Below, piece by piece: positions 22,064-34,927 of a DNA stretch of 50,518 nt (position 1 is the first letter of the stretch; each line of letters begins with the position of its first letter). Under the pieces are notes generated by a model, which was not told the origin of the DNA, did no database searches, and worked only from the letters and a program-made list of their open reading frames with translations. This stretch comes from Nitrospirota bacterium (GTDB lineage Bacteria > Nitrospirota > UBA9217): contig JAKAHZ010000007.1 in assembly GCA_021814615.1 (NCBI GenBank), positions 1 to 50,518 of the forward strand. Reading direction: 5' to 3'. The translations under genes and the position numbers were made by a program.

Positions 22064-23098
22064 TCAATCAAATGACCCGTTTGTATCTTTATCGTCAAAC
22101 TGACCCGGTTTCATATGATCTTCCTCAAGTTTCGATAGCCACGCAATATAATCTAAGTGTTCCTTCGACATTTTTTGCTCTGAGAATGAGGCCTTTTCTT
22201 CATAGCGGGAGCCGGGATAATAAAACTGGGCTCGAATAAATGGATTTTTGAAAGGATAACCGTATGATGCAAATACTTTGTTCTTCGCGTATCTCAATTG
22301 AGAGGATGGCATGATTCCGTGAAATTTCTTTATTTCGATCATATCCTGAGATACAGGTCGCGAAATCAACGGGAACCGAGAGCTCCCACCTTGCAAAAGA
22401 AAGTCGTTTTTCGGTTTAAAGTTCTTTATATTCCAAGAAAGAACTAGCACATCTCCAATTAATTCCGCTTTCTGTTCTCGCGGTAGCGTGCCAATCAATT
22501 CTTTAGCGTTTGATGTCTTTGTTTTAAAGATCATGTAATAATCTTCAATTACACTTTTCCAATGACCACCCGTTCTGAGGATGTACTTAAGATTCAAACC
22601 GCCCATCGAATCTGATATGCCTCCAACATCATAAGTATGTTTTATTTGTTTTGTTTCGCCGCGTTTGAATTCTACTGAATATGTGAATACCAACTTAGAA
22701 AAGTGCGAGTCTTTTATTCCGGGATTCGGAATGCCTTCCTTTTTCGAAATCGCTACCTCTTGCCCATTAACCCAAGTGCGGAAATGCGTATCAATTTCAA
22801 TTTGCTCACCCTCTATATCATCAACGAGCACGGGAAAACCCATTTGAAGTACGGTATCTCCTCCGTGATTCTTGAATGTCATATCGACATCAAAACCGAA
22901 ATTGTTGCGCTTGCTGTGACCGAAGGCTTTGTTGTCCGTGATTGTTATTGTTTCCGCGACAAGTTGAACTTCGGATGATTTAGTGGGAAATACTTGGTAC
23001 CCGTTGCCTTCATATACACTGTCATCCGCATACGAGTTTTGTAGTGGTACACAGCTAAAAAGAAAGAGGACCAGAAAAGAGAAAAGGCATCTCGTCAT
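22064..23098 (-). CDS. Secreted protein, DUF4424-like domain plus YARHG-like C terminus
   Basis: 344 residues with an N-terminal signal sequence MTRCLFSFLVLFLFSCVPLQ, either a lipoprotein (Cys16) or cleaved after NSYA. Residues about 35-220 resemble the beta-rich DUF4424 family (VAETITITDN, then FDVDMTFKNHGGD). Near the C terminus RYAKNKVFASYGYPFKNP matches the YARHG pattern of envelope proteins. The reaction, if any, is unknown. GGAGGT lies eight bases before this ATG, which is why I reject the longer frame starting 35 codons upstream. The gene is clearly AT-richer than its neighbours and is flanked by repeats on both sides, suggesting recent acquisition. The 491-base spacer upstream holds repeats and no gene. 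Confidence 0.75.
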   Translation of the reverse strand: MTRCLFSFLVLFLFSCVPLQNSYADDSVYEGNGYQVFPTKSSEVQLVAETITITDNKAFGHSKRNNFGFDVDMTFKNHGGDTVLQMGFPVLVDDIEGEQIEIDTHFRTWVNGQEVAISKKEGIPNPGIKDSHFSKLVFTYSVEFKRGETKQIKHTYDVGGISDSMGGLNLKYILRTGGHWKSVIEDYYMIFKTKTSNAKELIGTLPREQKAELIGDVLVLSWNIKNFKPKNDFLLQGGSSRFPLISRPVSQDMIEIKKFHGIMPSSQLRYAKNKVFASYGYPFKNPFIRAQFYYPGSRYEEKASFSEQKMSKEHLDYIAWLSKLEEDHMKPGQFDDKDTNGSFD

Positions 23099-23433
23099 GT
23101 CCGATGACCTCCATTTAGTGATCCGCAACAGGTTAACCAATAATTGAACGATTTTTCCCGACTTTGTCGTGATTAGCTCGCTAAATCCATCGATAAAGAA
23201 CAAGGCATCAGAACAACATCTTGATATTGCTAAAAATGTAATGTCGGATAATATTCCGTAGGAATACTTGAGGACATCTCCTCATCTCCGAAATTATCGT
23301 TATCCTGTCTTACGAAATGATGATCTTTACGTTCTGCTTTCTTGCGCGAGAATACCGAAATCCTGACGGGAAGTCAATGAAACAGATTGCTTCGGAAGGT
23401 TGGCTTGCGGGACAAAATGAGTATTTATGCTGC

Positions 23434-26342: not shown

Positions 26343-27572
26343 TTAATGATCCGGGTACCGCTCGCCGATATTCTTGATCGTGTCCAGGCAGGCAAAAAAG
26401 GTCTCGACCATCTCGGGATCGAAGTGCGTGCCCGAGCATACCTTGAGCTCGTCCAGCACCTGGCCCTCGTCCCATTTCTCCTTGTACACCCGGCGCGAGC
26501 TGAGCGCATCGAAGACGTCGGCCAACGCCACGATCCTGCCGAAGATGGGGATCTCGTCGCCTTTCTTCGGCCGCGGCTTGCCGTCGCTCTGTTCGTAGCC
26601 CACGAGCGTCTTTCCGTCATAGGGGTTCACGTGGCCCGGATAGCCGGTGCCGTCCCATTTCTCGTGGTGGTTCAGGGCCACCACCGCCGAGGCCTCGTCA
26701 AACTCTGAATACTGTTCGGAGAAGAGCCGCGCTCCCGCCGTGGTGTGCTGCTTCATGGCTTCGCGTTCCGCGTCGTCGAGCCTCCCGGGCTTCTTCAGGA
26801 TGACGTCCGAGATGGCGACTTTTCCCACGTCGTGCAGCATGGCCGACATGCGCAGGATGTCCCGGTTCTTGTCGATCACATCCTGCGGCACGCTGCGTTT
26901 CTCCGCCCAGTGCTCATAGAGCGCCACGGAATAGGCCGCCACGCGGTTCACGTGCGAGCCCGTTTCCTTGGGGTCCCGGAGCTCCGCCATTTTGATGGTC
27001 CGGAGGATCATGGCGCGGGTGAGCTGGGCGCGCTCGATGGCAACGGCCGCCATGTTCGCGAAGTGCATGATCAGCGGCTCGTCCTTCTTCGAGAAGGGAA
27101 CGACCCTGCCCCGGGTGTTCTTTTCGTTGATCAGCTGCAGCACGCCGATGATGTCGCCGCGGTTGGTCTTGAGCGGGAAGGTGAGCATGGACTGCGTCCG
27201 ATAACCCGACAGATCGTCGAACTTCCTGTTGAAGGAGAAGGGGAGCGACGACGGCAGCTTATACACATCGGCCAGGTTCAGCATCTCGCCGTTGTTGGCG
27301 ACATAGCCCGCGATCGTCTGGTTGTTGATCGGCAGCGTGAAGGTGGAGTAGATCAGCTTCTTGCCCGGCTGCCGCTCCTGCAGCGTGTCGTTCTGCGTAT
27401 AGCTGAACTTGAGCTTGTCGTCTTCCTTGACGTAGATCGTTCCCGCGTCGGCGGAAACCAGGTTCCGCGCTTCCTTCAGGATGCGCTCCAGGAGGACGTC
27501 CAGGTCTTTCACCTGAGTGATCTCCACGCCCAGCGTGATGATCTTCGCATACTTTTGTTTTTCCGTCAGCAT
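26343..27572 (-). CDS. GAF-domain HD-GYP cyclic di-GMP phosphodiesterase
   Basis: 409 residues, soluble. A GAF domain (about 20-180) precedes an HD-GYP domain with the metal-binding HD in MLHDVGK (247-251) and the GYP motif HHEKWDGTGYP at 302-312. Between GYP and the next conserved segment (IPIFGRIVALADVFDAL) there is a longer loop than usual, NPYDGKTLVGYEQSDG. HD-GYP proteins of this type hydrolyse cyclic di-GMP to GMP, which would link this region to surface attachment and motility control. A strong promoter lies only six bases upstream of the ATG and no ribosome binding site is visible, so the mRNA is probably leaderless. Confidence 0.93.
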   Translation of the reverse strand: MLTEKQKYAKIITLGVEITQVKDLDVLLERILKEARNLVSADAGTIYVKEDDKLKFSYTQNDTLQERQPGKKLIYSTFTLPINNQTIAGYVANNGEMLNLADVYKLPSSLPFSFNRKFDDLSGYRTQSMLTFPLKTNRGDIIGVLQLINEKNTRGRVVPFSKKDEPLIMHFANMAAVAIERAQLTRAMILRTIKMAELRDPKETGSHVNRVAAYSVALYEHWAEKRSVPQDVIDKNRDILRMSAMLHDVGKVAISDVILKKPGRLDDAEREAMKQHTTAGARLFSEQYSEFDEASAVVALNHHEKWDGTGYPGHVNPYDGKTLVGYEQSDGKPRPKKGDEIPIFGRIVALADVFDALSSRRVYKEKWDEGQVLDELKVCSGTHFDPEMVETFFACLDTIKNIGERYPDH

Positions 27573-27578
27573 GGCGTC

Positions 27579-27607
27579 ATTGTAGCCTTCCGCTTTCGCC
27601 TTGTCAA
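27579..27607 (-). promoter_or_regulatory. Strong promoter abutting the HD-GYP start codon
   Basis: Minus strand: TTGACA, 17 bases, TACAAT, then six bases to the ATG. Transcription should begin at or next to the A of the start codon. It is divergent from the dksA-type promoter, whose -35 is 32 bases away. Confidence 0.8.
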
Positions 27608-27639
27608 TGCAACCGGAACGGCGTTTTGCCTTTTCTTAA

Positions 27640-27668
27640 TTGACTCACCCCGTCGTTTTTGTTATCAT
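27640..27668 (+). promoter_or_regulatory. Sigma70-type promoter of the DksA-type gene
   Basis: TTGACT, 17 bases, TATCAT. The expected start point near 27675 falls at the base of a 12-bp hairpin. Confidence 0.8.
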
Positions 27669-27677
27669 GTCGCACTG

Positions 27678-27711
27678 AATTGCGAACGGTGATGCAAGGC
27701 CGTTCGCAATT
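27678..27711 (+). promoter_or_regulatory. Perfect 12-bp hairpin at the 5' end of the DksA-type mRNA
   Basis: AATTGCGAACGG and CCGTTCGCAATT with a 10-base loop, followed by TTT then ACC. It sits within three bases of the predicted transcription start. It could protect the 5' end, act as a weak attenuator, or be an operator at DNA level. The four-T run is short for a terminator. Confidence 0.8.
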
Positions 27712-27739
27712 TTACCTTGTACCAGGCGGAGCGGAGTGC

Positions 27740-28102
27740 ATGGACAAAAAGATGCTCGAAATCCGGAAGGAGCTCGTCAGACAGCGCGAAGAGCTGCTCT
27801 CCGAAGCGGAACAAACCATCAACAGCAAACTGATCACGGAAAAGCAGAGTTTTCCCGATCCGACGGACCAGGCTGCTGCGGAACTGGACAGCAATTTCAC
27901 GCTCCGCCTCCGCGGCCGGGAGCAGAAGCTGCTCAAGAAGATCGACGAAGCCATCGCCCGCATCGATGACGGTTCCTATGGTGTCTGTGAATCCTGCGGC
28001 AATCCCATCGGCATGAAGCGCCTGGCCGCCCGTCCGGTGACCACACTCTGCATTGAATGCAAAACCGCCCAGGAAGAGGAAGAGAAGCGGCAGACAGGCT
28101 GA
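27740..28102 (+). CDS. Short DksA/TraR-family zinc-finger regulator
   Basis: 120 residues against about 150 for E. coli DksA. A coiled-coil region (about 5-75) carries DPTDQA at 40-45, which fits the DksA tip motif DxxDxA that reaches into the RNA polymerase secondary channel. The zinc finger has Cys83, 86, 104 and 107 (CESCGNP...CIEC). It probably tunes transcription at stable-RNA or stress promoters together with ppGpp; this follows from the family. The start is the ATG after GCGGAG; the in-frame upstream codons lie inside the leader hairpin. An intrinsic terminator follows 38 bases after the stop. Confidence 0.9.
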   Translation: MDKKMLEIRKELVRQREELLSEAEQTINSKLITEKQSFPDPTDQAAAELDSNFTLRLRGREQKLLKKIDEAIARIDDGSYGVCESCGNPIGMKRLAARPVTTLCIECKTAQEEEEKRQTG

Positions 28103-28140
28103 TCGGCATCCAGCCGCATCTGCGGGACAACGGCATACAG

Positions 28141-28172
28141 GGGCTGACCACCGGGTCGGCCCTTTTTCTTTT
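28141..28172 (+). terminator. Intrinsic terminator after the DksA-type gene
   Basis: GGGCTGACC pairs with GGTCGGCCC (9 bp, one G-U, 4-base loop) and is followed by TTTTTCTTTTTC. It lies directly before the ribosome binding site of a 44-codon gene, so partial read-through would be needed to express that gene from this promoter. Confidence 0.88.
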
Positions 28173-28188
28173 TCAAGGAGGTCGGTTC

Positions 28189-28323
28189 ATGGACCAAGTG
28201 AAGGAGAATGATGAGGCGAAGGAGCAGCGGGAGCTGTTGCGCGAGCTGTTGAAGATACAGGAACTGGTCCTGCACCGGCTGGACCGCATCGAAGAGGCGA
28301 TCCGGAACTCCCCGCGGTCCTGA
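28189..28323 (+). CDS. Small charged coiled-coil protein, 44 residues
   Basis: Not recognised. The frame MDQVKENDEAKEQRELLREL continues as one amphipathic helix (LKIQELVLHRLDRIEEAI) ending in NSPRS. It has a strong ribosome binding site (AAGGAGG) eight bases before the ATG, which supports translation. No separate promoter is visible between the terminator T-run and this site. Either read-through of that terminator or an unseen start expresses it. It converges with the lipoprotein gene, ending eight bases from its stop. A role as a small partner protein is possible but nothing shows it. Confidence 0.6.
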   Translation: MDQVKENDEAKEQRELLRELLKIQELVLHRLDRIEEAIRNSPRS

Positions 28324-28331
28324 AACGCGGT

Positions 28332-29408
28332 CTATTGCAGCCAGAGGATCTCGAGCCCCTGCGTTGTCGCAACGAAGGCGAATGCGCCGTCCGGCGACAC
28401 GGCAAGATCGTGGGCATACCCCGCGAGGACGCCGATGCCCCGGGAGACCGGGGCGGCTGGATTGCTCATGTCGAAAACGCGCAGGATCGAACCGCTTGCA
28501 ACGAACGCGGTCCCTCCGTCGGACGAAAGCACGATGCCGTCATAGTTGTCGTCAGAGAAGCAGTAGGGCGTGTTGACCGGAAACTGGGCGGCTCCCACCA
28601 GCTGCGGCGCGGTCTCGCCGGTGAAATCCTGGACTGCCAGGAGCCCGCATCCGATGCTGAAGACCGTCCGAAAGTCCGCTGCAACGGCAAGATCAACTGC
28701 CCGGTCCAGATGCAGGGCTGCTGCCTGGGCCGCGCCGGAGAGTGCCAGCGGGGCGGACGGCTGGGAAAGATCGAACAGCTGCACCGCATTTCCCGCCGTC
28801 GCGAAAAGACGCTGCTCGTCGGGCCGCACCGCCATTTTCGTCACCACGGTGTTCGCATCGGCAATCCCGGGCAATGCCGCGATCGAGAGCGTCTGCGGAG
28901 CCGCTGGAACGGTCACATCCACGCGATGGAGCCGGCCACAGGCCGTGTAGTAGATACGACTGATGTCGCCGACGCCGGCAAGGGCCGTGACAAAATCGGG
29001 ACACTGTGCGTCATTGATGGTCGATAGCACGGCGGGCGCGGACGGATTCGAGATGTCGAGGACCTGCACCGCATTGCTCACGCCGATGATTGCCCGGGTT
29101 TCCGATTGGGCAAGGAGCAGATCAACACCGTATTGGCTCCCGCCAGCGCCGGGTACCGGCGTGTTCTCCTCGGCGAGCAGGTTCGGCGTGGCAGGCGATG
29201 AGACATCGATAATCACCAGCTTCTTGTTCTTGCCCGTAACATAGGCCCGTTGCCCGTCCGCCGACAGCCGGATGCCGCTGAAATCGCCGCTATAGGATCC
29301 GACACGCTGGAAGGTCTTGGTGGAAACGCTTTTCCCCTTGCAGCCTGAGGGAATGAGCGCCGCCATCAAGGCGATGACAACCACACCCCAGAAACCTTGT
29401 CGTTTCAT
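28332..29408 (-). CDS. LVIVD-repeat lipoprotein, predicted beta-propeller
   Basis: 358 residues with a type II signal peptide and lipobox ending in Cys23 (ALIPSGC). The body is a series of about seven LVIVD-like blades such as VIIDVSSPATPNLLAEE, VQVLDISNPSAPAVL and VQLFDLSQPSAPLALS, which fold as a beta-propeller and usually act as surface adhesion or binding modules. There is no catalytic motif. GGAG lies 11 bases before the ATG. A longer frame adds 64 codons without signal sequence and is rejected. Its place next to unrelated genes gives no functional hint, and no clear promoter was found in the 295-base spacer upstream. Confidence 0.85.
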   Translation of the reverse strand: MKRQGFWGVVVIALMAALIPSGCKGKSVSTKTFQRVGSYSGDFSGIRLSADGQRAYVTGKNKKLVIIDVSSPATPNLLAEENTPVPGAGGSQYGVDLLLAQSETRAIIGVSNAVQVLDISNPSAPAVLSTINDAQCPDFVTALAGVGDISRIYYTACGRLHRVDVTVPAAPQTLSIAALPGIADANTVVTKMAVRPDEQRLFATAGNAVQLFDLSQPSAPLALSGAAQAAALHLDRAVDLAVAADFRTVFSIGCGLLAVQDFTGETAPQLVGAAQFPVNTPYCFSDDNYDGIVLSSDGGTAFVASGSILRVFDMSNPAAPVSRGIGVLAGYAHDLAVSPDGAFAFVATTQGLEILWLQ

Positions 29409-29703
29409 ATTCACACTTCTCCGTTCATAACAATTCAGTGACTCGCGAGAACTTCCTGCCGATACCGCGACTGGCTGATCATTCGGTCCGCCCGACAAGA
29501 ATGACGATCTTCCAAACCGGGCGCCTGAACGTGGACAGCTACCAGCGCGCCGCCTCGGGAAAAGCCTTGAGCACAGTTCAGGAATGACTCCGGTAGTCAT
29601 GAATTAGCAACATCATACAACTTGTTGACGCCTTCCATTCTTCGGGCGTGACCTAGTCCAGTACTGGAACGATCGTCGGAATTCCCCGGCCGGAGAGCCG
29701 TTC

Positions 29704-30921
29704 TCAGGAGATCACCCTGCTCAGCGGCACGGCCCATAAATGCTCGCCAAGCGGAACCGTCTCCGTCCCATTGTATGCCAGCACGGCGGCGACACAGCCC
29801 GGCGTTGCCGCCAGGAAGGCCTTCAAACCCGTGAGGTCGCGCTCCTCCCATCGTGCGGCCGATTTGACCTCAAGGGCAATGCACCGCCTGCCCGATTCGA
29901 TGACAAAATCGACCTCATACCTCCCTTGCACGTTCCAATAGTGCAGCGTCGCATTTGCCAAATGCGCCGCAAGGATTCCCGCAAGGTTCTGGGCCACGTA
30001 GGTTTCGAGCATTGCCCCGCGCGATGGGTCGCTCTTGAACGCATGAACGCCGGCGAGCCAGCACGCAAGCCCTGAATCAGACAGATACATCTTGGGCGAC
30101 TTGATGATCCTGCTCGCCCGGTTCTTTAGGAACGGGGTGAGCCGCCAGGCAAGAAAAGAGGTCTCCAGCAGAGACAAATACCTCGCTGTCGTCACGGCAT
30201 TCAGCTTCGCGTCGCGGCCGAGCTCGCTGGGGCTGAGCAGCCTGCCGGTCCGGAGCGCGGCCAGCTGCATGAGATTCTTGAACACGACGATATTCTCCAG
30301 ACGGCTGAATTGCCGGAGGTCCCGCTCCAGATAGGTCTGCTCATACCCCTTGAACCAGATGTTCCTGTCCTTCACTTCGCCGAGGCAGACCGACGGCATT
30401 CCGCCGGAAAGCACATCGCGCTCACCGATCGCGCGTATCGTCCCCCCGGATGACGGCTTTCCGTCCTCGAGCAGTTTCACGATGAACGGCCGGGCGGAAA
30501 CATGCCCCTCCTGCTCCCTCCGGGTGAACGGATGCATGGTAAAGTAGATCGCCCGTCCCGCGAGGCTCTCGGTGATGCCCTTCAGCAGGGCAAAATTGGC
30601 CGACCCCGACAGGAGGTACTGTCCCGGAGAGCGATGCCGGTCCACGCGCCTCTTGATGGCTGTCAGCAGTTCCGGGCACTTCTGGACCTCATCGATGGCA
30701 AGCGGCTCGTCGCTCTCGACAAAACGATCAGGTGATTCGCGGGCGGCGGCAAGCTGGGCAAGATCGTCTAGGGTGACATAACGCCGCTTGTGCAGCCCCG
30801 CCTCGTTCCGGAGAAACGTGCTCTTGCCGGACTGGCGCATGCCGGTCACAGCCACGACCGGCATATTCTCCAGGGCTACGAGCACAGCGCCGGCAATATC
30901 GCGCTTATGGTAGGCTGTCAT
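29704..30921 (-). CDS. AAA-family ATPase with C-terminal DUF4143 domain
   Basis: 405 residues. The N-terminal ATPase has Walker A GMRQSGKST, Walker B PLAIDEVQK and an arginine-rich sensor region. The DUF4143 part ends with YEVDFVIESGRRCIALEVKS, a PD-(D/E)xK-like fold core (D...ExK). Proteins of this type are common, often single, genes of unclear function in bacteria and archaea. Links to toxin-antitoxin or defence roles have been suggested but not shown for this one. It is driven by a perfect-consensus promoter so close to the ATG that the mRNA is probably leaderless. No terminator is visible after it. Confidence 0.92.
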   Translation of the reverse strand: MTAYHKRDIAGAVLVALENMPVVAVTGMRQSGKSTFLRNEAGLHKRRYVTLDDLAQLAAARESPDRFVESDEPLAIDEVQKCPELLTAIKRRVDRHRSPGQYLLSGSANFALLKGITESLAGRAIYFTMHPFTRREQEGHVSARPFIVKLLEDGKPSSGGTIRAIGERDVLSGGMPSVCLGEVKDRNIWFKGYEQTYLERDLRQFSRLENIVVFKNLMQLAALRTGRLLSPSELGRDAKLNAVTTARYLSLLETSFLAWRLTPFLKNRASRIIKSPKMYLSDSGLACWLAGVHAFKSDPSRGAMLETYVAQNLAGILAAHLANATLHYWNVQGRYEVDFVIESGRRCIALEVKSAARWEERDLTGLKAFLAATPGCVAAVLAYNGTETVPLGEHLWAVPLSRVIS

Positions 30922-30963
30922 AATACAACATTATATGGTGACATAATGACAATGTCAACGGGA
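30922..30963 (-). promoter_or_regulatory. Perfect-consensus promoter with overlapping inverted repeats
   Basis: Minus strand: TTGACA (30953-30958), 17 bases, TATAAT (30930-30935), then eight bases to the ATG. TGACATTGTCA is a palindrome covering the -35, and TGTCAT half-sites flank the -10. Such a strong core with repeats suggests tight repression, perhaps by the gene's own product or a linked regulator. Confidence 0.85.
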
Positions 30964-31054
30964 GAGTGCGACGACTATCGATAGGGAAGAGCGGGCCCGT
31001 GCAATCCGCAGGACTGGCCCCCGCGCTATGTATGACAACTAAGAAACTGGGATT

Positions 31055-31223
31055 TAGCAGGTTGTTGAAAAAGGCCACCTTTATTGTCATTGCGAGGAGC
31101 GCAAGCGACGAAGCAATCTCGTATCTGGTTGATTTTTTAGCTACGAGTTTGCTTCGCGGAGTTTATCCTCGTGAAAACGGGGACTCGCAAAGACCCTGAA
31201 AAACGTTTTTCAACAGCCTGTTA
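31055..31223. mobile_element. MITE-like element with 20-bp terminal inverted repeats
   Basis: 169 bases bounded by TAGCAGGTTGTTGAAAAAGG and, inverted, TAACAGGCTGTTGAAAAACG (17 of 20 identical). No transposase frame lies inside. The interior is itself roughly palindromic: GCGAGGAGCGCAAGCGACG and its partner share TTGCGAG and CGAAGCAA/CTCGTA ends. It sits between the DUF4143 gene and a truncated HAD gene at the left edge of the AT-richer island. Confidence 0.75.
31141..31192. repeat. 52-base dispersed repeat, copy 2 (inverted)
   Basis: Reverse complement begins CTTTGCGAGTCCCCG and matches the copy at 23434-23485 with one substitution and two single-base indels. It forms the right half of the MITE-like element. 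Confidence 0.85.
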
Positions 31224-31393
31224 GAACGAGAGTGAGTCATTATCACACAAGGTCTTGGGGCTTGATGTCTTCCGTCCAGCGGATTTTTTGTCATATCGCA
31301 GGACCTGACCCCGGAGATCTTCGAGCCTTTCCATCCATTCCAATGAGCAAGGGTTCCGTCTAAATCGACACCGATCCAGTCACTATTTGACAT
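31224..31393 (-). pseudogene. N-terminal remnant of a HAD-family hydrolase
   Basis: The frame starts MSNSDWIGVDLDGTLAHWNG, the HAD motif I DxDGT with its flanks, with a GGAG seven bases before the ATG. After about 26 residues the similarity stops: the sequence becomes a GGGGTCAGG-type repeat and then runs into the MITE-like element. A full HAD protein needs motifs II-IV, which are absent. It looks like a gene truncated by repeat invasion; a functional micro-protein is unlikely. Confidence 0.6.
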
Positions 31394-31516
31394 TCAATAC
31401 TCCGTCATCTTGAATATCGTCATTTGATCCGGTTAACAGAAGTCAGGAACTATTTCCGCTCTCGGCTATCCATGACAGCTTATCGTGACTCCATTTCTGG
31501 GCTCGAAGGGGAAATA

Positions 31517-32188
31517 TTAGCATTCGATTTTAAAATCATATAGCGGGCGATAGGTAATCGCCTCTATATTATTAGATTTGATCAAATCACGGGTTTTCTC
31601 ACGAGGATCCCCCTCTGATGCAGGCCAGACGATCATCTTTCGTACTGATCTGCCGTCCCAATGTGTGCCATTACCCAAGATGGCAACTATTTTAATAAAT
31701 AATTCTTTTCTTTTCACGATAACTTTTTCGAAATCATTGCATTGTCTTATCAATTCCGTCAATTGTCGATCGCTTTTTAATTCTATGACCCATATAGCGC
31801 CTTCATTGTCTATTGCTAAAATATCATTTACAATCTTTCTCCTGCCCGGTTCAAGTGCCAATTCAGACGTTAAGAAAGATAGGTTGTATTTGTTCCAAAA
31901 GTCAGGCGGATTCCCATAAATAATTTGACGGATAAGCCACGCTTGAAGCATTTTCTCTGGTGTCGCTCTCTTTGGTTTTTCCAACTTATCCATTTTCGCA
32001 ATTTCTTTTAACGCGTTCTCAGGCCTGATTCTTGGTATTCCCAATTCAGGTGTCGTACTACGAAGAGATATCAAGGAAATGCCTTTGCAACCAGCCCTGA
32101 AGTGACACTGCTTTTGAAAAAGTGCATCATGGTGAGTCGAATTCAGCTGAGCGGCGATTTCAAAATATTTGAGATCACATTCCTTCAT
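31517..32188 (-). CDS. PD-(D/E)xK-like protein, unknown role
   Basis: 223 residues, not recognised as a named family. The central part has the nuclease-fold pattern: Glu109/Glu113, then Asp122 in IVNDILAIDNEG and the pair Glu136-x-Lys138 in WVIELKSDRQ, similar to NucS/RecB-type cores. The N-terminal third is lower in known motifs. A nuclease or nuclease-like binding role is the best guess. It lies 43 bases after the RNase J-like gene in the same orientation, so the two probably share a transcript. The coding sequence is AT-rich compared with the core genes. No membrane segment or signal sequence is present. Confidence 0.65.
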   Translation of the reverse strand: MKECDLKYFEIAAQLNSTHHDALFQKQCHFRAGCKGISLISLRSTTPELGIPRIRPENALKEIAKMDKLEKPKRATPEKMLQAWLIRQIIYGNPPDFWNKYNLSFLTSELALEPGRRKIVNDILAIDNEGAIWVIELKSDRQLTELIRQCNDFEKVIVKRKELFIKIVAILGNGTHWDGRSVRKMIVWPASEGDPREKTRDLIKSNNIEAITYRPLYDFKIEC

Positions 32189-32231
32189 TGTAATTACTCT
32201 CTCCCTTTAATACTCAAGACGATTTACAGTT

Positions 32232-33470
32232 TTATAGTGTGACAACATGCTGATCAGACAATTCATAAACATTGTCAAAACAGTCCTTAAACATTGCTCC
32301 GCATTCAGTATGAATAGGGATAAGCATTTTCGGGTTTATTGTTGCTGCAAATCGTTTTAAATCTTGTACCGTCGCATGTCCGCTTGAGTGAGCATAGACA
32401 AAATTGATTTGCTTATCGCTCTGATAGGCAGCGATTTCTTCGGCTCCGTAACATTCATCGTTTGAACATTTCAGATAGCCGAGCCACTGCGAATAGATGA
32501 GATTAACAGCTTTCCCACCTTTGTACAAGTCGATAATCCGGAATTTCGACATCTTGGAAAGATATAGGTACTGCGCCGGGTCGGCTTGCAGTTCCTCTTT
32601 TTGAATCCGATACTGATAAGCTGACCGTCTGAAATTACCGAACACCTCTGGGTTCGCCTTGAGCACCTCATCATAATTCCGATCAGCATATACACGTAGA
32701 TTCTTCCAGCCGATGCCCGGAACGTTCCCGGTAACGGTTCGCATAAGCTCCAGCACCCAAGCGGTATAAAGATCAATGACAAATATCTTCCCCGCTCTTT
32801 TGCAGGCCCGGAACGCGGAGACGAGACGGTCTACGTTTTGAGAGGAGGATATTAAGAATGATATGTTTTCCTGTTCCTTGATTGTCTCGTATATTTTTTC
32901 CTCGACAGCCGCTTCTGCCGGAAAGTCAGCATTAGACCGCTGCATCATGGTCCCTTCCATAAACAAAACATCGACACCCTTTACCGGTTTCTCTAGCATG
33001 GTGTCGAACAGAATATGTTTTCTTCCATGAGCACGGAAATCTCCGCTGTAAAAAACCTTTTTCCCTTCCGCCTCAATCAGAAAAGCATACGCGTCAACCG
33101 CTGAATGGTCAACCAGATAAGGTGTGATCCGGAAATCACCCACGGTAAATGGCTGCCATTTCTCAAAGTTACGAAACTCGTTCTGCAATGGGGGCTTGTC
33201 AAGGAGAAGGCGAACCACATCGATGAGGCTTTTGCCGAGTCTACCGATGTAGACGGGGATCTTGCTGTCGGCCGCGTCTATAAGACCGTAATGGTCCTGA
33301 TGGGGATGGCTGATAATGATTGCATCTGTCTTGATTGACGCCAAATCGAGGGTCTTGCTTTCTTTGCTGAGCGGCATGCCAAGATCGAGCATGATGGTGG
33401 TCTTGTCTGTGGATAGTTGAATGCAAGTTCCACCAATTTCATTGCTTCCACGATGAATGATGATTTTCAT
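32232..33470 (-). CDS. RNase J-like metallo-beta-lactamase/beta-CASP protein
   Basis: 412 residues. The zinc-binding HPHQDH is at 55-60, His122 (VDHSAVDAYAF) and Asp144 (YSGDFRAHGRK) follow, and the beta-CASP motifs HSSGH (361-365) and PIHTE (385-389) close the site. This set marks nucleases and hydrolases acting on RNA or DNA 5' ends. It is shorter than housekeeping RNase J (about 550 residues) because the C-terminal dimerisation domain is absent. I start at MKIIIHRGSNEIGG, the family start; an ATG 12 codons upstream lies one base after the WYL stop and could be used by coupling. Its neighbours suggest an accessory role, not mRNA turnover. Confidence 0.85.
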   Translation of the reverse strand: MKIIIHRGSNEIGGTCIQLSTDKTTIMLDLGMPLSKESKTLDLASIKTDAIIISHPHQDHYGLIDAADSKIPVYIGRLGKSLIDVVRLLLDKPPLQNEFRNFEKWQPFTVGDFRITPYLVDHSAVDAYAFLIEAEGKKVFYSGDFRAHGRKHILFDTMLEKPVKGVDVLFMEGTMMQRSNADFPAEAAVEEKIYETIKEQENISFLISSSQNVDRLVSAFRACKRAGKIFVIDLYTAWVLELMRTVTGNVPGIGWKNLRVYADRNYDEVLKANPEVFGNFRRSAYQYRIQKEELQADPAQYLYLSKMSKFRIIDLYKGGKAVNLIYSQWLGYLKCSNDECYGAEEIAAYQSDKQINFVYAHSSGHATVQDLKRFAATINPKMLIPIHTECGAMFKDCFDNVYELSDQHVVTL

Positions 33471-33507
33471 AATTAATAACGTACCATGCAATACTGACAA
33501 CATCATG

Positions 33508-33717
33508 TCACCGGCTTTTATTTCTTTTTCTATAGACCGACAGCATGGCGCTTAATTCAGCTTGGACCTTTTTTCTGAACGATAACGGAGACAGCACCTC
33601 ACAATTCGGCCCCCAGTGGTAAATCCAACGTTGAATTTCTCTGGTTCCGCGAACCGTCACGCGGTAAATGATGGCCCCATCTTTCCTTTTTTCTATTCTC
33701 TCTGAGGGATCCGCCAT
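33508..33717 (-). CDS. Stand-alone WYL C-terminal (WCX) domain protein
   Basis: 69 residues containing REIQRWIYHWGPNCEVLSPL and FRKKVQAELSAMLSVY, the pattern that ends WYL-type transcription regulators. The usual helix-turn-helix and central WYL domain are missing, and an in-frame stop lies just before the ATG. Either it is a decayed regulator or a small single-domain protein. WYL proteins commonly control or sense ligands for defence systems. Its stop is one base from a possible start of the RNase J-like gene, so they are co-expressed. It is divergent from the 260-residue protein. Confidence 0.6.
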   Translation of the reverse strand: MADPSERIEKRKDGAIIYRVTVRGTREIQRWIYHWGPNCEVLSPLSFRKKVQAELSAMLSVYRKRNKSR

Positions 33718-33775
33718 GTTTCACGTATCCTCAATGAGGCGCGACTATATCTCACACTCTTTACTGACGCAACGC

Positions 33776-33797
33776 TGTCAGTGACACCGGATATAAT
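33776..33797 (+). promoter_or_regulatory. Palindrome and -10 element in the island's divergent promoter region
   Basis: TGTCAGTGACA (33776-33786) is a perfect 5-1-5 palindrome directly before TATAAT (33792-33797). No good -35 is present at 16-18 bases, so the plus-strand promoter is probably regulated. The palindrome lies between the two divergent genes and could serve both. Confidence 0.5.
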
Positions 33798-33815
33798 TAT
33801 CGGAAAGGAGCCGGC

Positions 33816-34598
33816 ATGGACACCGACATAGTAGAAGCAGAGCAGGTAATAACGAGAAAAATGAATAGCGAATTTCCGGAGCATCTCCATAAGAGTGTTC
33901 AGGTGACGACCGGCTACGTATACAGCGTACTTCAAATACTAGACTCGCTCACCTTCTCGTATAAACGTAAAGCGGATGAAGTCAAGACAGAGGCGCAAAA
34001 AGTCTACAGCATCCTCTTTAAAGGCCCGGATGTTGAGCGTATTAGTATCCCTGATAGCGGAAAAACGATTTACGACATACTGGAGTGCATAGAGCGAATA
34101 GCATATAACAAGTATCTTGAAGCAGTTGCGGAGATATATGCAGAAGAGAGCGATGATATTGAATCGATAATCCGTGGAGCAAAGTTCTTTACGCGGATTT
34201 ACAAATACAGGTTGGGCCTGAAAGATCAGAATATTCCCCGAAAATTGAAAAAGCACAAACAATCGATATTTACTTTCGAATATAAAAACCTTCTCGATTT
34301 CTGCGATATGGCCGATAGTTTTCTCCAGCAGGAAAAACCCGATCTCGCTATTGATGCCTTACGCACCCTTATCCGGTTAATCTGGTTCTACTCGCCCTAC
34401 ATCCGAAGGCCAGCAGGTTCCGAATTGGTGCGATTAGACTACCGAGGTCATTGGATCGATCTGAACCTGGATCATGTTCTTGAGCAAGGGATTGAAATAG
34501 CAAAACATGCCGCAAATACGAGCAAGGCCGAACAGGGCCTTAGAGCCGCAGCCGAAGAGCTTATACTGAAACTTTCAGAGGCGAGAGAACAGATTTAA
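33816..34598 (+). CDS. Unknown mostly helical protein of the accessory island
   Basis: 260 residues; I do not recognise a family. It is predicted mostly helical with charged surfaces, for example KADEVKTEAQKVYSILF, and a middle segment YRLGLKDQNIPRKLKKHKQS. No signal peptide, membrane segment, nucleotide-binding loop or HEPN RxxxxH motif is visible. AAGGAG lies five bases before the ATG. It is AT-rich and divergent from the WYL/RNase J-like/PD-(D/E)xK genes, sharing a 98-base promoter region. It may be the other half of the same system, for example a sensor or target-binding subunit; that is inference from position only. The 254 bases after it, up to the tRNA gene, show nothing recognisable. 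Confidence 0.75.
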   Translation: MDTDIVEAEQVITRKMNSEFPEHLHKSVQVTTGYVYSVLQILDSLTFSYKRKADEVKTEAQKVYSILFKGPDVERISIPDSGKTIYDILECIERIAYNKYLEAVAEIYAEESDDIESIIRGAKFFTRIYKYRLGLKDQNIPRKLKKHKQSIFTFEYKNLLDFCDMADSFLQQEKPDLAIDALRTLIRLIWFYSPYIRRPAGSELVRLDYRGHWIDLNLDHVLEQGIEIAKHAANTSKAEQGLRAAAEELILKLSEAREQI

Positions 34599-34810
34599 GA
34601 TAGAAAGCTGTCTTCACCACCCGCTGTTCTTTTCCGAACTTTGCTCGCTTGTTATCAATTCGCAGCATCTTTCTGTAAATCCCATTTGAGCAGTTGAGAC
34701 TCAGCATTGTGGTGGATAACTATGCGCTGGCTAATGCATCCCACTATTCCTAATGGCTCCTGCCCTGTCATTGCTGTGGCCATCTTTAGCACAAAATTAG
34801 CACAGAGAAA

Positions 34811-34841
34811 AGAAAAAGGGCCACGGCAAATGCCGTAACCC
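34811..34841 (-). terminator. Intrinsic terminator of the tRNA-Val gene
   Basis: Minus strand: GGGTTACGGC pairs with GCCGTGGCCC (10 bp, two G-U, 4-base loop), followed by TTTTTCTTTTC. It begins 11 bases after the tRNA 3' CCA. Confidence 0.9.
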
Positions 34842-34852
34842 TTCGATATGCA

Positions 34853-34927
34853 TGGTGGGCGCTACTGGGATTGAACCAGTGGCCCCTGCCGTGTGAAGGC
34901 AGTGCTCTCCCGCTGAGCTAAGCGCCC
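34853..34927 (-). tRNA. tRNA-Val (anticodon CAC), CCA encoded
   Basis: Cloverleaf built by hand: acceptor GGGCGCT/AGCGCCC, D arm GCTC...GAGC, anticodon arm CTGCC-TTCACAC-GGCAG giving anticodon CAC, T arm CTGG-TTCAATC-CCAG, discriminator A and encoded CCA. It reads GUG codons. Its 3' end faces the accessory island. A terminator follows. I could not find a second copy of its 3' end within the window to mark an attachment site. Confidence 0.97.

Follow-up and report, generated by a model that had tools for sequence, protein, structure and literature searches.

Comparison across genomes supports the view that the genes for a beta-CASP metallo-beta-lactamase and a PD-(D/E)xK nuclease form a real, undescribed two-gene module. 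Both lie in the window, i.e., the whole analyzed stretch of 50,518 nucleotides from a Nitrospirota bacterium, and many unrelated bacteria carry the two as neighbours or as one fused gene, often on mobile DNA. With a probability of about 0.6, it is a mobile two-nuclease module, probably WYL-controlled where intact, that breaks down the nucleic acids of phages or plasmids or else halts the infected cell, the regulator in the window being truncated. An earlier note on this DNA had proposed a divergent four-gene unit; this unit is not conserved, and only the beta-CASP and PD-(D/E)xK genes recur. The four open reading frames were confirmed at the positions that it had given (31517–32188, 32232–33506 and 33508–33717 on the minus strand, 33816–34598 on the plus strand). 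The features of the window are as follows:

27573–34852, no strand: strain-variable insert of ~7.3 kb carrying the module, between the conserved gene 26343–27572 and tRNA-Val
31055–31223, no strand: MITE-like element with ~18-nt terminal inverted repeats (31055–31072 and 31206–31223), context only
31517–32188, minus strand: PD-(D/E)xK nuclease, 223 aa, core gene 2, separated from the upstream beta-CASP gene by 43 bp
32232–33470, minus strand: beta-CASP metallo-beta-lactamase, core gene 1; the open reading frame opens at 33506, and the start common to homologues is the ATG at 33470
33508–33717, minus strand: WCX-tail remnant of a WYL-family regulator, 69 codons, N-terminal HTH and WYL domain missing
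33816–34598, plus strand: 260-aa ORFan without family match, neighbour outside the module
34853–34927: tRNA-Val, adjoining the unit on the side of the 260-aa gene

The predicted nuclease pair

The beta-CASP protein of about 412 aa matched the Pfam families Lactamase_B_2 (1.9e-16) and RMMBL (4.5e-07). It carries MBL motifs 2–4, motifs A, B and C and the RMMBL region and matches RNase J folds, which places it in the beta-CASP superfamily. As the earlier note had claimed, the full metal site is kept, with all motifs intact (SHPHQDH, DHSAVDAY, GDFRAHG, MEGT, HSSGHA and PIHTE). Residues H63, H65, D67, H68, H130, D152, E180, H366 and H388 (numbering of locus L050; loci are designated by L numbers) are present in at least 90% of the aligned sequences. 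The absence of the RNase J dimerization domain was also borne out, as the chain ends at the RMMBL region and gave no further Pfam match. The gap of one base suggested between the WYL piece and the beta-CASP gene had to be revised to 37 bp, since homologues share the ATG at 33470. For the fused protein of L050, a confident two-domain model with a mean pLDDT of 80 was obtained, and its first part matched EF2904 and RNase J. These are also the nearest solved structures to the beta-CASP protein of the module, EF2904 from Enterococcus faecalis (PDB 2az4) being the closest by both fold and sequence. A histidine in motif C is typical of RNA-cutting beta-CASP members, according to the RNA/DNA rule for this motif. 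Because this histidine is among the conserved columns, the enzyme is predicted to act on RNA.

The profile of the partner family gave only chance-level matches to PDB sequences and, therefore, the fold of the partner was assigned from the predicted model. The model of the window protein was moderate (mean pLDDT of 53, with about 65–84 over most of residues 121–210), and its C-terminal catalytic half matched the nuclease folds of NucS/EndoMS, Card1, Can2, FokI and Shedu. D122, E136, K138 and Q149 are conserved, and D, E and K are invariant across 11 divergent partners. The D-x(n)-(E/Q)xK core and the fold matches of this moderate model assign the protein to the PD-(D/E)xK superfamily. Thus, the nuclease core proposed for the gene 43 bases after the beta-CASP gene was confirmed. 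The partner probably acts on DNA.

No entry describing the pair was found in Pfam, NCBIfam, PADLOC or PHROGs. Likewise, no description was found in the open-access literature, and one may exist elsewhere; MBL or beta-CASP proteins are named in neither of two recent comparative-genomic studies of defence. With RNase J, the window protein shares the MBL, beta-CASP and RMMBL architecture, the metal-site motifs and the motif C histidine, but it lacks the C-terminal domain and scored only 63.6 bits (cut-off 400) with TIGR00649 and 53.5 bits (cut-off 820) with RNase_J1_RnjA. The module clade differs from other bacterial beta-CASP ribonucleases in standing apart from paralogues of the same genomes and in its near-constant PD-(D/E)xK neighbour. 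The Enterococcus gene in L100, 24% identical, lies among transporter genes, with no recognized PD-(D/E)xK partner. Cas14 of type VII CRISPR is also a beta-CASP nuclease in a prokaryotic immune context, but the score was only 44.2 bits against a cut-off of 800, and the MBL protein of the 6A-MBL system (NF058524) yielded 12.5 bits against 220. In HamM/AVAST-type systems, an MBL nuclease and a trypsin-like protease make up a two-gene unit found repeatedly in defence loci (PMC12799240). There, the MBL protein is ComEC-like and protease-activated, whereas the window encodes a beta-CASP protein and a second nuclease. Membership in the trypsin-MBL, Cas14, 6A-MBL and RNase J groups was rejected, since no model matched or scores were far under the cut-offs. 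The catalytic half of the partner is folded like those of Shedu, NucS, Card1 and Can2, but the global TM is only ~0.3, and N-terminal regions and gene context differ. Among the PADLOC 2023 models, none matched the beta-CASP protein, and the PD-(D/E)xK protein gave a weak partial match to PDC-S11 over 36 residues.

Recurrence of the pair and exchange of the partner

Relatives of the beta-CASP protein were collected from GTDB genomes, the window's phylum, the phylum of Geomonas and plasmids. The window protein has relatives that are 53–67% identical to it, with those of Geomonas, Geobacteraceae and Syntrophaceae at 62–67%. In a tree of 64 beta-CASP proteins, the module clade (35 proteins) was split from 29 paralogues with a support of 0.959. 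An adjacent protein with D..(E/Q)xK on the same strand was found in 23 of 33 loci of the beta-CASP clade (window included), whereas none of 29 further beta-CASP genes from these genomes had one (Fisher p = 2e-9, for loci that are not phylogenetically independent). Partners were called with one fixed regular expression, refined after examples had been seen and applied equally to the controls, which were 5–9 kb stretches around the paralogues. Both parts are encoded in one open reading frame in L046, L047 and L050 (intact) and in L048 (truncated), and in L006 the partner lies one gene away from the beta-CASP gene. Contig ends cut L055, L060 and L061, for which no adjacent partner was scored; L010 and L058, both with complete flanks, showed no recognizable partner. 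With two outliers excepted, the genes overlap or lie at a short distance (-92 to +60 bp). The fusions occupy two separate branches of the beta-CASP tree, and the position of the partner alternates between upstream and downstream. Repeated re-linking and fusion are the usual signature of physical cooperation. Thus, the co-occurrence in nearly all relatives and the four fusions support an undescribed two-nuclease system. The check suggested in the earlier note, whether the four genes co-occur in other genomes, came out in favour of this pair and against the 260-aa gene, which was never beside it; the WCX piece is a stump, though intact WYL regulators do occur with the module in other loci.

BLAST groups the partners into seven clusters. 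Eight beta-CASP proteins that are 51–78% identical (window, L002–L005, L019, L020 and L049) have partners from four of these clusters. In the Geomonas loci L003 and L005, the beta-CASP proteins are 78% identical, and their partners are unlinked by BLAST. Judging from these clusters, the partner nuclease is swapped between loci, with the beta-CASP half kept constant. The beta-CASP gene of Geomonas anaerohicana (G299) is divided between two contig ends, L005 and L061, and a repeat or insertion may lie inside.

Searches found the module in only about 3 to 4% of genomes (8/296 and 14/395), and its loci occur on plasmids and genomic islands. In a PADLOC scan of the module loci only, with no matched controls, DUF262 proteins, type IIG enzymes, methylases and IetA-like ATPases were found as neighbours, which suggests defence islands. 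No close beta-CASP relatives were found in viral contigs. The phage-collection matches listed were RNase J-like and 22–25% identical, and were discarded as too distant for the module clade.

Other genes were observed beside the module. Large AAA+ ATPases of about 725–743 aa adjoin it in L002 (183–2414, IetA-like) and L022 (5690–7867). A calcineurin-like metallophosphoesterase gene overlaps the end of the beta-CASP gene on two distant plasmids (L009, 10236–10880; L010, 10455–11024). In two genomes from the same family, the gene immediately before the beta-CASP gene encodes a conserved protein of about 320 aa (L021, 7290–8246; L025, 4627–5592). On alphaproteobacterial plasmids and in Geomonas, a small family of about 125–200 aa with 'GIFW' near the start, possibly accessory and absent from the window, has the following members:

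L003: 4555–5163
L006: 8549–8953
L007: 8408–8992
L008: 10271–10645
L101: 5570–6013

Regulator remnant, orphan neighbour and insertion site

The 69-aa open reading frame matched Pfam WCX (8.7e-14) at profile positions 21/22–76 of 76 only, i.e., over the last three quarters. A TGA lies just upstream, and the WYL domain (PF13280) had no match anywhere in the organism's own genome. Thus, what had been described as a WYL piece is the tail of a truncated regulator: of the HTH, WYL and WCX parts of a WYL-family regulator, it has the WCX tail only. Elsewhere in the genomes checked, WCX genes mostly lie in full-length frames of about 310–385 codons. Among the loci compared, the stub most resembled the WYL regulator that stands ahead of the pair in L059 (37% over 62 aa, E 2.4e-09). 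Full-length WYL regulators adjoin the module in other phyla; on a Butyrivibrio plasmid (L104), the order is WYL-PDDEXK-bCASP, and WYL regulators also lie near the module in L102, L046, L010 and L004. A WCX gene was found within 5 kb in 3 of about 26 beta-CASP loci (window included), as compared with 0.11 expected at the density of the 25 genomes scanned (37 WCX matches over about 88 Mb). The likeliest reading of the stub is a leftover of a regulator that belonged to the module; this regulator's front end would have been replaced by the 260-aa gene.

The 260-aa protein matched no family in Pfam, NCBIfam, PADLOC or PHROGs. No homologues were found in 60 relatives, 395 other genomes of the phylum, plasmids and viral contigs, and the gene was absent from the other beta-CASP loci examined. 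It is therefore regarded as an orphan, not as a component of the module, and was judged a probable unrelated newcomer. Of the effector set proposed earlier, the two nuclease-type folds stand as the recurring pair, while the novel protein drops out.

The site itself agreed with the earlier description of AT-richer genes beside a tRNA gene and a MITE-like element. The GC content of the stretch with the four genes is 0.40–0.47, as compared with ~0.60 in the surrounding contig; tRNA-Val adjoins, and the inverted-repeat element has 41 matches across the genome. In eight same-family relatives, the order surA-rlmI-tRNA-Val is kept and the module is absent; in five of the eight, the counterpart of the gene 26343–27572 follows tRNA-Val. 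In L062, from the same genus, the corresponding interval is ~0.85 kb, as compared with 7.3 kb in the window. Thus, the module is part of a variable insert beside tRNA-Val. A repeat search of the insert revealed no tRNA attachment-site repeat at its far end, no integrase was found among the insert open reading frames inspected, and a promoter and terminator scan of the unit gave no more signals than shuffled sequence.

Three further genes of the window were observed. The same insert encodes an AAA_14/DUF4143 ATPase (29704–30921) with a strong match to the PADLOC candidate PDC-S01 (E 4.7e-112). A short open reading frame (31163–31393) reaches into the MITE-like repeat; its first codons resemble a HAD-type motif (VDLDGT), and the repeat may have cut a gene here and left this fragment. 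Outside the insert, a second AT-rich gene (22064–23203, ~41% GC) has a YARHG domain and was probably also acquired.

Proposed function and alternative readings

Anti-phage or anti-plasmid defence is our best guess for the most likely role, from the island and plasmid location and the neighbours. The beta-CASP and PD-(D/E)xK proteins would act as one complex, for which linkage, operon overlap and recurrent fusion give strong support. Since loci exchange the PD-(D/E)xK half and keep the beta-CASP half, the former probably sets the target or substrate, and the beta-CASP protein may provide a processing or activating nuclease common to all loci. Where a copy is intact, a WYL repressor, to judge from its co-location, probably silences the pair until a ligand or DNA signal arrives. 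The active pair would then degrade invading phage or plasmid nucleic acid or shut down the infected cell. Points against this reading are the lack of a recognizable partner in L010 and L058, the small share of genomes with the module and the absence of close relatives from the viral contigs searched. As the regulator in the window is cut to its WCX tail, the pair there may be constitutive or decaying.

Decay is compatible with the other readings: the window copy may, with modest likelihood, be a leftover without present function. The truncated regulator, the adjoining MITE and the short open reading frame that runs into it fit such a leftover, but both nuclease open reading frames are full length with intact motifs. 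Tentatively, the pair could also belong to an undescribed immune family that joins an RNA-cutting beta-CASP enzyme to an exchangeable PD-(D/E)xK DNase, so that the invader's transcript and template are hit together, with WYL control in some copies.

It is doubtful that the pair is a repair or RNA-turnover unit of mobile elements that processes damaged or stalled intermediates rather than fighting invaders. In fold, the window PD-(D/E)xK protein matches the repair nuclease NucS/EndoMS best, and the beta-CASP superfamily has repair and RNA-processing members; however, patchy presence, island and plasmid sites, partner swapping and WYL regulators would be unusual for housekeeping. A toxin–antitoxin or element-stabilization unit, in which one enzyme is the toxin and the other its restraint, is unlikely: it would suit a two-gene operon on plasmids with partner diversity resembling toxin swapping, but both partners have full catalytic motifs, and toxins are seldom fused with their antitoxins into a single chain. 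That all four window genes form one system is hardly credible despite their compact layout and common low GC, and was rejected, as the 260-aa gene is an ORFan in every set searched and the WCX open reading frame a stump without DNA-binding and WYL parts.

The preferred reading is that of a mobile two-nuclease module. That an RNase J-like enzyme is paired and fused time and again with interchangeable restriction-type nucleases suggests a single machine. If this machine protects against phages, bacterial immunity would gain a strategy based on two nucleases, possibly RNA-plus-DNA, and a function could be assigned to many genes now labelled only 'MBL fold metallo-hydrolase'.
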